Source of the DNA: an uncultured Lachnospiraceae bacterium
Lineage (GTDB): Bacteria; Bacillota; Clostridia; Lachnospirales; Lachnospiraceae
Length of the DNA: 48,554 bases
Direction: 5' to 3'
Assembly: GCA_947170415.1 (NCBI GenBank)
Contig: CAMVTN010000004.1
Coordinates: forward strand, 1-48,554
Below, piece after piece: positions 2,655-12,810 of the stretch. Numbering within the stretch: position 1 is the stretch's first letter; every line of letters starts with the position of its first letter. The translations under genes and the position numbers were made by a program. The notes under the pieces are model-generated. The model did no database searches, was not told the DNA's origin, and saw nothing but the letters and a program-made list of their open reading frames with translations.

Positions 2655-3113
2655 ATGGCAGAAAGAATGTGTAAAAATTGCGGAGCACCGATCGAAGACG
2701 GAGCAACAGAGTGCAGATATTGCAGGACCCCTGTAGGTGCAACCCCGAATATGGTAAATAATTCCTATTCTCAGGGTAATGCTTTTAATAACAGACAGAC
2801 CAGAAGTGACGAAGAAGAGCATAAGATACATGCGGTAGTTGCATATCTCGGAATTCTTGTATTGATCCCGATCTTTGCAGCTCCGGGTTCGGAGTTTGCA
2901 AAATTCCATGCAAATCAGGGACTTGTGCTTTTCCTTACTTCGATCATAAGCACAGTTGTTTTCGGATTTCTTCCGAATTGGTTTATCTTTAAGGGGCTTC
3001 ACTCACTTATCGGTATAGGAGTATTCGCACTTATGATAGTGGGTATCATCAATGCCGTTAATGGTGAAAAGAAGGAATTGCCCGTTATCGGAAGCATAAA
3101 GATTCTGAAGTAA
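2655..3113 (+). CDS. Zinc-ribbon membrane protein (DUF4870/Tic20-like helices)
   Basis: N-terminal CKNCGAPIEDGATECRYC, then KFHANQGLVLFL and hydrophobic segments. Confidence 0.75.
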   Translation: MAERMCKNCGAPIEDGATECRYCRTPVGATPNMVNNSYSQGNAFNNRQTRSDEEEHKIHAVVAYLGILVLIPIFAAPGSEFAKFHANQGLVLFLTSIISTVVFGFLPNWFIFKGLHSLIGIGVFALMIVGIINAVNGEKKELPVIGSIKILK

Positions 3114-8699: not shown

Positions 8700-8951
8700 A
8701 TGGCTGACATTAAAATTTTTAACGAGATCCGTGACATTCTTCTTAACTACGCAGAGGTAGAGCCGGAAGAGATCAATCGTGAAACAGACCTTATCGAAGA
8801 CCTGGGGATGGATTCCTTTAGCTTTATATCCATGCTCGGAGATGTGGAGGAGACTTTTTCCATTTCAATCTCTGAAGAGGATATGGAAGAAGCTACACAC
8901 ATGATCACACCGGGTGACATCATCAGATTTGTAGAAAAGAAAGTTGCCTGA
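8700..8951 (+). CDS. Acyl carrier protein
   Basis: ACP signature with phosphopantetheine site DLIEDLGMDSFSFISML; strong RBS ggggaggag. Confidence 0.92.
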   Translation: MADIKIFNEIRDILLNYAEVEPEEINRETDLIEDLGMDSFSFISMLGDVEETFSISISEEDMEEATHMITPGDIIRFVEKKVA

Positions 8952-8989
8952 TCGCACGGGATGTGAATATTTTTGGAGGAGTTACTATT

Positions 8990-10579
8990 ATGAAGATTCA
9001 GGAAAAGATCGACAGGGGAATCAAGGATTTCCGGACATTTCTAAATGCGCTCGCAGATAAATATGCTGATACGCCTGCTGTAAGAGAAATGCACGGAAAA
9101 GATATCGTGGATCGGACTTATAACCAGTTAAAGCGGGACGCAGATGCTGTAAGCAGATTCTTTTTGGCACAGGGAAATACGGAGCCTATGCATGTGGCTG
9201 CTATAGGCGCAACAAGTTACCAGTACATCGCTGCTTATTACGGTACCGTAAATACAGCAAATGTGATCGTTCCTACGGAGGCTCAGCTTTCAACGGAGAG
9301 CCAGTGCGATCTTTTCCATATGGCAGATGTTAACGGGCTTTTCTTTGATAGGCACTTAGAGGACAGAATACCGGAAATACATGAGAAATGCCCGGATATA
9401 CGACTTTTTATCTGCCTGACGGAAGATGTCGAGGCGCATGACCTTGGAGACATCCATATCTACAGTCTGTCGGAGATAGAAAAGGAATATGCAGTGGGTG
9501 ATGATATCACTGTTCCGCTTGAGCATGACACTATGAGCACCATCCTTTTTACATCAGGAACGACCAGTGCTCAGCCAAAGGCAGTTATGCTGTCTCACGG
9601 CGGCATAATCGACAATATTTTTTCCGGTGAGCTTGCAGAACGTGACTCGACGAACTATGTAAAGCTTATTGCACTGCCGATCCACCATGCGCTGAGCTTT
9701 AACACAGATATCGGAATGGGCTTCAGAAATGGCGATACGGTATTTGTAAATGATTCTATGCTGCATATCGCCAGGAACTTTAAGATCGCAAAGCCATATA
9801 CGGCAATCCTTGTTCCGATGGTATTTGAAAACTTCTACCATAAGATCATGAAGGCTCATGAAATGCATCCGGAGATGGACTTAAAGACCATGGCCCGGGA
9901 GGCATTTGGCGGAGAAATAGAAGTATTTTACTGCGGCGGTGCTCACCTTAGAGCAGAGATCGCGGATGCTTTTGAGTCATGGGGTATGCCGGTATTTGAA
10001 GGATATGGCATGACTGAGTGCTCTCCGAGAGTGGCAGCAAATATGCCGGGACGTTTCCGCAGAGATTCTATCGGTAAAGTCGTGGATAATGCGGAAGTGC
10101 GTATAAAGGATTCTGAACTTCAGGTAAAGAGTCCTTCGGTAATGCTTGGATATTATAAAAATCCGGAGGCTACAAAGGCCGCTTTTACAGAAGACGGATG
10201 GCTTAGGAGCGGAGATATAGGCTACATTGATGAAGACGGATATATCTTTCTTCAGGGAAGGATAAAGAACCTCATCATCTTAAGTAACGGTGAAAATGTC
10301 AGTCCGGAGGAGATCGAAACAAAACTGTATGACTGCACATTCATAAAGGAGTGTCTTGTATATGAGGAAGATGGAAAGATCACAGCAGAAATATTCCCGG
10401 ACACTGAATACGCTGAAATGCATGAGGTTTCGGACGTTGAGAAAGAAATTTCTGCAGCAGTTAAAGCAGCAAACAAGACTATGCCCACAACAAAGTCAGT
10501 TAGAAATGTGAAGTTTAGATACGAACCTTTTGAGAGAACAGCTACAAACAAGATCAAGAGAGCACGTAAAGCAGCGTGA
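8990..10579 (+). CDS. AMP-dependent acyl-CoA synthetase/acyl-ACP ligase
   Basis: ANL motifs ILFTSGTTSAQPKAVMLSH, GYGMTECSP and RSGDIGYIDEDGYIFLQGRIKNLIILSNGENVSPEEIE. ATG at 8990 has a ggagga RBS. Confidence 0.9.
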   Translation: MKIQEKIDRGIKDFRTFLNALADKYADTPAVREMHGKDIVDRTYNQLKRDADAVSRFFLAQGNTEPMHVAAIGATSYQYIAAYYGTVNTANVIVPTEAQLSTESQCDLFHMADVNGLFFDRHLEDRIPEIHEKCPDIRLFICLTEDVEAHDLGDIHIYSLSEIEKEYAVGDDITVPLEHDTMSTILFTSGTTSAQPKAVMLSHGGIIDNIFSGELAERDSTNYVKLIALPIHHALSFNTDIGMGFRNGDTVFVNDSMLHIARNFKIAKPYTAILVPMVFENFYHKIMKAHEMHPEMDLKTMAREAFGGEIEVFYCGGAHLRAEIADAFESWGMPVFEGYGMTECSPRVAANMPGRFRRDSIGKVVDNAEVRIKDSELQVKSPSVMLGYYKNPEATKAAFTEDGWLRSGDIGYIDEDGYIFLQGRIKNLIILSNGENVSPEEIETKLYDCTFIKECLVYEEDGKITAEIFPDTEYAEMHEVSDVEKEISAAVKAANKTMPTTKSVRNVKFRYEPFERTATNKIKRARKAA

Positions 10580-10606
10580 GTGTCAGATAAAATATAGAGG
10601 AGTATT

Positions 10607-12058
10607 ATGAAAGAACGTGAAATAAACGGAGTTAAGGTAAAGACCTGGCCTTTGACAGATGTGCAGGGCGGCTTATATAAGGTATTTGCCCATTATGCAA
10701 GTATTCAGGAAATGAATCTGGGTGTGGGATTCTATTTCAAGATGGACATGGATGAGGAACTCATGCGCCAGTCTATGCGCGAAGCCATAGAGTATATGGA
10801 GGCTCTGAATGTTCGTTTTGGTCAGGATGAAAATGGAGAAATGTACCAGTATATAAATCCTGAGCCGTGGAATGAAGAGATGCCTCTTTTGGATCTTTCG
10901 GATATGTCGGAAGAAAGCGCGAAGAAGTATCTCACTGATGTAACATCCGAACCGATTGATTATCTGCACAAAAATATGACCATTGTAAGGCTTGTGCGCC
11001 TGTGTGATGGGTATAGCGGTGTTTATATCAATTTCAACCATATGCTGGCAGACGGCTATTCCATAAATATGTTTATGACATATCTCGCTGCTATCTATTT
11101 TTCACATGTTTCAGGGAAAACGCTTCTTCTTCCTAAAAAGAGCGATTATGTAAAAATGATCGAAAAGGAGCTTTTATATAATGGTTCTGACAGAGAGAAG
11201 GCAGATCAGGAGTTTTGGAACAGTACACTTAGAGAGGGTGAACCGCTCTATACACATCCGACTGTAAGACCCGGAAATGCGTGGGAAAAACAGCAGGAAG
11301 AGCAGGGTGAGAATAAGACAAGATATCTTATCAATAATATCAGTCCTAAGGCTTCTATTGATTCTGAAATCATCGGTGGAGAGAGAGCTGAGAGACTGGT
11401 GGACAGCATCGCAGAAAACAAGGTGTCTGAAAATGCGCTTGCAACACTGGCACTTCGGAGTACTCTTTCGCTCTTAAATCACAGACAGACTGATATCGCA
11501 GCTCGTGTAATAGTGAACCGCCGCGGTACTATCAATGAACGTTATTCCGGCGGAAACCGGATGACATTCCTTACCTGGAGAAGCGATATACAGGACAACA
11601 TGCCTGTACGTGAGGCACTACAGGAAATGCTCGACAGTCAGAAAAAGATATTCCGTCATGCGGATTATAACTCTATGAAACGTCTGGCAGAGAGAGGGCA
11701 GTTCTTTGGAAATCCGCCAAAGGCAACCTATGAATCGGTTACATTTACCTATCAGCCGAATACAGTTCAGATAGATCCGAGACTTCCGGAGATGAAGGCA
11801 GTATGGTATTCAAACAGCAGTACATCAAATATATGCTATCTGACACTCGAACACCTCCTTGGAAAGAAGGATTACGTGTTTATTTATGAGCGTCGTGTAG
11901 AGGAAATGAATGAGGAAGAAATGCATTTCTTTACTGAACTTATGATGGAATGTATGGAAAGTGCTATGGCTCATCTCGACGGAACAGTAGGAGAGGTGCT
12001 TGATGAAGTACAGGCGCGTCATCCGGAATTAAGTCCTGAACCTGCATTCAGTGTGTGA
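10607..12058 (+). CDS. Stand-alone condensation-domain/CoA-dependent acyltransferase-like protein
   Basis: HxxxDG catalytic motif in NFNHMLADGYSINMF and overall C-domain-like organisation. Confidence 0.78.
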   Translation: MKEREINGVKVKTWPLTDVQGGLYKVFAHYASIQEMNLGVGFYFKMDMDEELMRQSMREAIEYMEALNVRFGQDENGEMYQYINPEPWNEEMPLLDLSDMSEESAKKYLTDVTSEPIDYLHKNMTIVRLVRLCDGYSGVYINFNHMLADGYSINMFMTYLAAIYFSHVSGKTLLLPKKSDYVKMIEKELLYNGSDREKADQEFWNSTLREGEPLYTHPTVRPGNAWEKQQEEQGENKTRYLINNISPKASIDSEIIGGERAERLVDSIAENKVSENALATLALRSTLSLLNHRQTDIAARVIVNRRGTINERYSGGNRMTFLTWRSDIQDNMPVREALQEMLDSQKKIFRHADYNSMKRLAERGQFFGNPPKATYESVTFTYQPNTVQIDPRLPEMKAVWYSNSSTSNICYLTLEHLLGKKDYVFIYERRVEEMNEEEMHFFTELMMECMESAMAHLDGTVGEVLDEVQARHPELSPEPAFSV

Positions 12059-12124: not shown

Positions 12125-12173
12125 GGTAAATTATATAATGGACTTTCAATGGATGCCACGTTGAGGGAAAATG

Positions 12174-12182
12174 TGTTATGAT
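12174..12182 (+). promoter_or_regulatory. Candidate extended -10 promoter (TGTTATGAT) for the structured leader
   Basis: TGnTATGAT; predicted start falls near 12189, immediately before the first direct repeat. No good -35 seen. Confidence 0.4.
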
Positions 12183-12189
12183 GATGTAA

Positions 12190-12362
12190 ATAGTCGGTTA
12201 CAGTTCAGACGCAAACGGAGCACTTTGCTGCGGAGTTTGTGACCAACAAATATGAATAGCCATATAGGTTTTGCCCATCGCCAAAGGCGATTTAATTGGC
12301 AAAACCTGTTACTGTCGCGAGCTGAAAGCGAGTGAACAGTAACAATAGTCAGTTACAGTTCA
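12190..12362 (+). ncRNA. Candidate structured RNA leader or repeat element with three hairpins between imperfect direct repeats
   Basis: Direct repeats atagtcggttacagttca (12190-12207) and atagtcagttacagttca (12345-12362). Hairpins at 12211-12240, 12266-12307 (aggttttgcc/ggcaaaacct with inner atcgcc-aaa-ggcgat) and 12308-12343 (gttactgt/acagtaac). Confidence 0.55.
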
Positions 12363-12396
12363 CGTCAAAAATCGCATAAAAGCGGAGGTTTTATAC

Positions 12397-12810
12397 ATGA
12401 GCGAGAGATCAACACAGGCAGTTCACAAGCACGAATCAGAGCAGGACTATCTGGAGACGATATTAAAAATAAAGAAAGAAAAGGGAAGCTGCTACGCCGT
12501 TGATGTATCGAGGGAACTCAATATATCAAAGCCGTCTGTTACTATCGCGGTTAATAAGCTTGTGGCAAAAGGATATCTTGTCCGTTCTGAAGGAAAGGAA
12601 CTCATCTTTACAGAAGAGGGCGCAAAGATCGCAAAGAAGATTCTTGACCGCCACCGTTTTCTTAAGACCTGGCTCATGACCATAGGTGTATCGGAGAAGA
12701 CTGCCGAGGAAGAAGCCTGTATGATAGAGCATGATATCAGTCAGGGAACTTTCCAAAAGATGAAAAAGGCATTTAAGGAAAACTATCCTGACGTGTCTAT
12801 AATGAAATGA
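12397..12810 (+). CDS. DtxR/MntR-family metal-dependent transcriptional regulator
   Basis: ESEQDYLETILKIKKEKG...VDVSRELNISKPSVTIAVNKLVAKGYLVR...LTEEGAKIAKKILDRHRFLKTWL-type DtxR layout, with EEACMIEHDIS metal-site-like segment. Confidence 0.85.
   Translation: MSERSTQAVHKHESEQDYLETILKIKKEKGSCYAVDVSRELNISKPSVTIAVNKLVAKGYLVRSEGKELIFTEEGAKIAKKILDRHRFLKTWLMTIGVSEKTAEEEACMIEHDISQGTFQKMKKAFKENYPDVSIMK

Follow-up and report, generated by a model that had tools for sequence, protein, structure and literature searches.

A dispersed three-hairpin element upstream of a dtxR-like gene is very probably a MITE moved by an IS66-like transposase in Lachnospiraceae

Results

A structured, bounded segment upstream of dtxR

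The window (the whole 48,554-nt stretch of DNA analysed here) comes from an uncultured Lachnospiraceae bacterium. At 12397..12810 (+) it encodes a DtxR/MntR-like repressor, with PF01325 and PF02742 both above cut-off, and a strongly structured segment lies upstream of this gene and outside it. An earlier note on this DNA had described the segment as a repeat-flanked RNA element, and its direct repeats, hairpins and complementary arms are all present. The direct repeats (12189-12207 and 12344-12362) are 19 nt long and 95% identical, and complementary arms join 12332-12343 to 12352-12363 and 12307-12315 to 12336-12344. The segment folds at -61.3 kcal/mol as compared to -39.5 +/- 4.0 in shuffles (z -5.4), and the reverse strand is likewise structured (z -4.6). 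The extended -10 that the note pointed out is also there (TGTTATGAT, its second hexamer at 12177-12182 after TG), with promoter-like matches near chance level (2 found vs 0.9 expected). The note had recognised no riboswitch or sRNA class, and Rfam agrees, giving no family at the gathering threshold or at E<=10. Although the structured segment is real, its limits had been drawn differently: the mobile unit is 12197-12343, and the second direct repeat lies outside it. The features are as follows.

12153..12182 (+), promoter-like site ATGCCA-18-TATGAT with TG before the -10, upstream of the insertion; the same extended -10 occurs in the relatives G013 and G030
12189..12196 (no strand), left target-site duplication AATAGTCG, its last base unlike the right copy; site unduplicated in G013
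12197..12343 (+), MITE, 147 bp, non-coding; limits set by aligning 18 own copies and by 122 distinct insertions
12197..12207 (+), left terminal inverted repeat GTTACAGTTCA; own-copy alignment and end-motif scan
12210..12241 (+), hairpin A, CGCAAAC...GTTTGTG with an internal GGA/GGA loop; two-sided changes in 6 of 7 outer pairs
12266..12307 (+), hairpin B, the best conserved across genera; complementary arms, pairing test and matches in other genera
12308..12343 (+), hairpin C, its 3' side formed by the right terminal repeat; complementary arms and pairing test
12333..12343 (+), right terminal inverted repeat TGAACAGTAAC; own-copy alignment and end-motif scan
12344..12351 (no strand), right target-site duplication AATAGTCA; own-copy alignment and the G013 empty site
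12352..12363 (+), TIR-like 12-mer GTTACAGTTCAC, outside the element and already in the G013 empty site

Each direct repeat consists of a target-site duplication (TSD) and the sequence after it, which is the left end of the element in the first repeat and the TIR-like 12-mer in the second. The two TSDs of the window copy differ by one mismatch, as do its 11-bp terminal inverted repeats (TIRs). No ORF of at least 60 aa lies within 12197-12343, in keeping with a MITE, which is short and without a transposase gene. The window copy belongs to the W subfamily, together with copies C17 and C19 of its genome. That 12197-12343 is a MITE we regard as nearly certain.

A dispersed family with 8-bp target duplications

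Searching the source genome (G000; 2.32 Mb in 183 contigs, 76% complete) with positions 12180-12375 returned 39 matches in unrelated contexts. This genome holds 18 near-full copies in addition to fragments, and relatives hold about 50-160 copies. When the near-full copies were aligned with their flanks, likeness started at the left TIR and stopped at the right TIR, and the flanks beyond were unrelated. The majority of these own-genome copies are edged by an 8-bp duplication of their own (CATAAATA, CACAATTT, CGTATTTA, GCGTTTTT, TGAGGTGG and others). Among 122 distinct insertions, gathered from all loci as elements of 140-152 bp, exact 8-bp TSDs flank 84, as compared to 0.84 expected when flanks are shuffled among copies; TSDs with one mismatch flank another 14 (0.24 expected from shuffled flanks). 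The end motif has 65 matches in the source genome vs 4 for a reversed control. Own copies are intergenic and stand in both orientations relative to genes. Of the options raised in the earlier note, that of a dispersed intergenic repeat is borne out by the scattered matches, the exact TSDs and an empty site described below, and nothing needs an sRNA as explanation.

Family matches were found in 15 of 61 genomes (the source genome and 60 relatives), all 15 from the same genus. Among the matches listed in a pattern scan are Lachnospiraceae NK4A144, MC2017, KH1P17, KH1T2 and MAG RUI249. Other genera of Lachnospiraceae gave weak or partial matches in 7 genomes; one of these, G176, has a complete 144-bp element (L275), whose ends are GTTACTATTCA and whose TSD contains a single mismatch. 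The MITE had no match in the plasmid and phage collections.

One copy (L009, ~2890-3036; C19 of G000) sits within another MITE's terminal repeat, with TSD AACTGTAA. A TSD-plus-end arrangement like that of the window recurs in C21 (L011), and L162 is a MITE-TSD-MITE dimer. Systematic insertion beside existing ends was considered and rejected, the arrangement being exact in only two copies of the 140-152-bp set (those of the window and C21), with any existing end within 30 nt in five. Insertion beside existing ends is occasional.

It is highly probable that these copies are a non-autonomous MITE, spread genus-wide in rumen Lachnospiraceae, with ends recognised and inserted by an IS66-like transposase that leaves an 8-bp duplication. 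Such an enzyme would recognise the ends GTTACNGTTCA, duplicate 8 bp of target upon insertion and move the MITE in trans. The conserved three-hairpin fold is a property of the element.

Two-sided changes in the internal hairpins

Covariation was assessed on the three-hairpin structure with 16 copies less than 93% identical and 500 shuffles. The structure is paired in 93.7% of cells, as compared to 87.1% in shuffles. Two-sided changes occur in 10 pairs and 32 cells, against 5.7 and 8.7 in shuffles, and none of the 500 shuffles reached the observed values. Hairpin A supplies the bulk of these changes (CGTAAAC/GTTTACG, CGCAACC/GGTTGCG and others), and the RNAalifold covariation term is small. The fold is genuine, its two-sided changes going beyond every shuffle. 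The earlier note had proposed covariation as a check on its RNA element; two-sided changes were indeed found, but they are seen across insertions in many contexts and are therefore a feature of the mobile element rather than of dtxR.

Selection on structure, acting on RNA or a DNA strand alike, is a plausible source of this pattern. Selection on RNA and on DNA look the same in these data because G-U is not in excess over A-C: mismatches in the three hairpins comprise 16 G-T and 16 A-C, and the strand test is neutral. A strand bias of the fold was rejected on this equality, with an excess of G-A confined to a few shared columns and probably reflecting few events. Template switching within palindromes, in which one arm is copied onto the other and compensatory change is mimicked, is a real alternative to selection.

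In longer variants of the family (197-265 bp), the tip of hairpin A or B is extended by additional palindromic segments, and matches in other genera fall most often on hairpin B. In G032, long palindromic inserts at hairpin tips were seen at L165:351-615, L160, L168 and L162, one of them a nearly perfect palindrome of ~110 nt.

Together with the base pairs changed on both sides, the tip segments and the recurrence of hairpin B favour selection on the transcript or single strand of the mobile element (as a mobile regulatory RNA, an mRNA stabiliser or a transposition structure), with the fold kept beyond terminal pairing. We hold this reading, which is compatible with an IS66-mobilised MITE, to be unlikely: neither strand is favoured, template switching can imitate the signal, and copies stand in both orientations relative to genes. 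Rather doubtful is its fuller form, in which the whole three-hairpin fold of an IS66-mobilised MITE is selected (as RNA or as single-stranded/cruciform DNA) and grows by palindromic modules at its tips, so that a structured regulatory part is carried about and comes to rest in leaders.

A candidate partner transposon

The end motif, sought beyond the MITE itself, pointed to a G027 element whose ORF1 has 114 aa and which also encodes a protein of 539 aa; the latter contains an IS66 transposase domain (PF03050, DDE_Tnp_IS66; 1.4e-20, 74.3 bits, cut-off 23.1). G030 has three identical IS66-like transposase copies (2237 bp) with ends GTTACAGTTCAGAC, which match GTTACAGTTCAGACG of the window copy over 14 bp in the best case. 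G015, G018 and G012 contain further relatives of the IS66-like element, and G034 contains part of one. Exact 8-bp TSDs lie on both sides of the elements in G027:C5 (GTTCATTT) and G012 (AGAGGATT). Autonomous elements with the ends of the MITE are thus present in G030, G027, G012 and others; the terminal 11-14 bp are in common and the interiors unlike.

Canonical IS66 ends start GTAA. The genus's IS66-like elements instead start GTTAC, and GTAAC appears only in some MITE left ends. We use the label "IS66-like" because the NCBIfam IS66 equivalog scores (168.6, 125.7 and 173.2 bits) lie below the cut-off of 180. The 8-bp duplication and the DDE_Tnp_IS66 transposase of the candidate partner are shared with the IS66 family, in which ISPpa5a and ISPpa7 also make 8-bp repeats (PMC3281130). 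The family differs in three respects: the genus's elements have ends GTTACNRTTCA, the partner has a single small ORF1 with no family match before the transposase, and its NCBIfam scores range from 125.7 to 173.2.

G000 (assembly 76% complete), G063 and G036 yielded no IS66-like transposase, and our first guess for the partner, a complete IS66 in G000, was dropped. G013 and G032 have broken IS66-like transposase remnants only, and several MITE-rich genomes may have lost the helper. Genomes of this kind, together with the sharing of termini only, would also suit another transposase family as the mover, the IS66-like ends being alike by convergence. We consider this improbable. The genus has several independent IS66-like elements whose ends and TSD length fit, and the only other transposase seen at these ends, one of the IS4 family, belongs to an element that has entered the MITE and has ends and a 10-bp duplication of its own. 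Judged from sequence, an IS66-like helper for the MITE is likely.

In G032, two 1.9-kb TIR-to-TIR elements resembled autonomous partners but proved to be MITEs into which an IS4-family element had inserted. Another element there, 752 bp long and with similar ends, is what is left of an IS66-like element and retains ORF1 only. In the 1.9-kb pair (L157:1889-3779 and L158:1830-3770), the IS4-family element (443-aa transposase, NF033592 161.9 bits; ends CAATGTCAGTAAG) lies at the same MITE right-end point with a 10-bp duplication, GCGTGTGAAC; a third copy of 1944 bp (L244:634-2577, G032) is outwardly similar. This points to the MITE end as a specific target site of the IS4-family element. At L245:1136-5090 (G027 C14), an IS66-like element with adjacent passenger ORFs and a further end with a matching 8-bp duplication, GCAACCCG, looks like a larger composite unit.

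Relation to known elements

Prokaryotic MITEs (PMC10969869), among them MITEPsy1, for which mobilisation has been shown (PMC3189936), and QMITE2 of Coxiella, resemble the present family in being short and non-coding with TIRs and a target duplication (7-9 bp in QMITE2), in their AT-rich intergenic sites and in stable stem-loops in the transcript. They differ in sequence and hosts, and the present family has two-sided base-pair changes in internal hairpins and modular inserts at the tips. The text of the review on prokaryotic MITEs (PMC10969869) mentions neither IS66 nor Clostridia. The family is apparently undescribed in the literature searched; it has clear limits, has been active recently and comes with a candidate for its partner transposase. 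As base pairs changed on both sides are seen here in a transposon, covariation alone is no proof of a regulatory RNA, and the family could serve to ask whether hairpins inside a MITE are of importance to its transposition or to host mRNAs.

ERIC, RUP and Correia/NEMIS are also structured and mobile, and can reach leaders and affect expression, as the present element may. Their ends and target duplications differ from those of the present MITE (RUP and Correia duplicate TA), and by sequence they were compared with it only through Rfam.

Insertions at the dtxR locus

Four orthologous dtxR loci were compared (G000, G013, G063 and G030). In G000, the element follows the promoter-like site and precedes the dtxR RBS. 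G013 (NK4A144), whose neighbouring genes are 94-96% identical to those of G000, reads GATGATGTAAATAGTCAGTTACAGTTCACGTC at the window site, with no insertion and no duplication. It has a 98%-identical copy ~60 bp further upstream with TSD GTAAATTA, where G000 is unduplicated, and the two genomes have reciprocal empty sites as in a MITE insertion polymorphism. A copy in G063 (KH1P17) occupies a third place in the opposite orientation, adjoining the stop of the upstream gene, with TSD AGTGTAAG. The dtxR leader of G030 is without a MITE and has an IS66-like element upstream. At the window position, the element is absent from the dtxR orthologues in G013, G030 and G063. The insertions at this locus are best read as independent events.

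These loci decide the proposal of the earlier note that the segment is a dtxR-specific, metal-responsive leader, that is, a riboswitch-like cis-regulatory RNA. Its place between the promoter-like site and the RBS, its strong fold and its alternative pairings with the downstream repeat would suit such a role. The pairings behind the proposed mutually exclusive folds do exist, but their source is the inverted ends of the element meeting a TIR-like 12-mer already in the target. By the note's own rule, many copies in unrelated contexts count against a specific leader; the site is moreover empty in G013, no copy separates promoter from gene in G030, and Rfam has no match. A leader of this kind is extremely improbable, and a dedicated dtxR leader is already refuted, which removes a false riboswitch lead. 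A palindromic, intergenic, multi-copy repeat of the REP/BIME type, moved by a RAYT or IS200/IS605-like enzyme, has a negligible chance, as that single-strand mechanism makes no target duplications or terminal inverted repeats and the exact 8-bp TSDs and TIRs of the element contradict it.

Taken as a MITE, the window copy probably lengthens the dtxR leader because it lies between the promoter-like site and the RBS. It would be transcribed as part of that leader, where the added structure may alter dtxR expression, an effect that the arrangement of the locus makes possible. The 12-mer GTTACAGTTCAC is present in the G013 empty site and therefore predates the insertion, in which the adjoining AATAGTC(A/G) was duplicated. 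The 12-mer may itself be left over from an earlier end. G013 has about six copies of the window's subfamily above 95% identity, some partial, and a same-region copy there is unlikely by chance because the subfamily has so few copies in that genome. The window copy (12197-12343) and L254:604-750 (G013), near-identical members of a rare subfamily ~60 bp apart in two species, may thus reflect a short-range hop or a hotspot.

Further upstream of the dtxR-like gene, positions 8700-12058 of the window hold consecutive genes for a small acyl-carrier protein and for AMP-ligase-like and condensation-like proteins, which from their translations are reminiscent of a small biosynthetic cluster.
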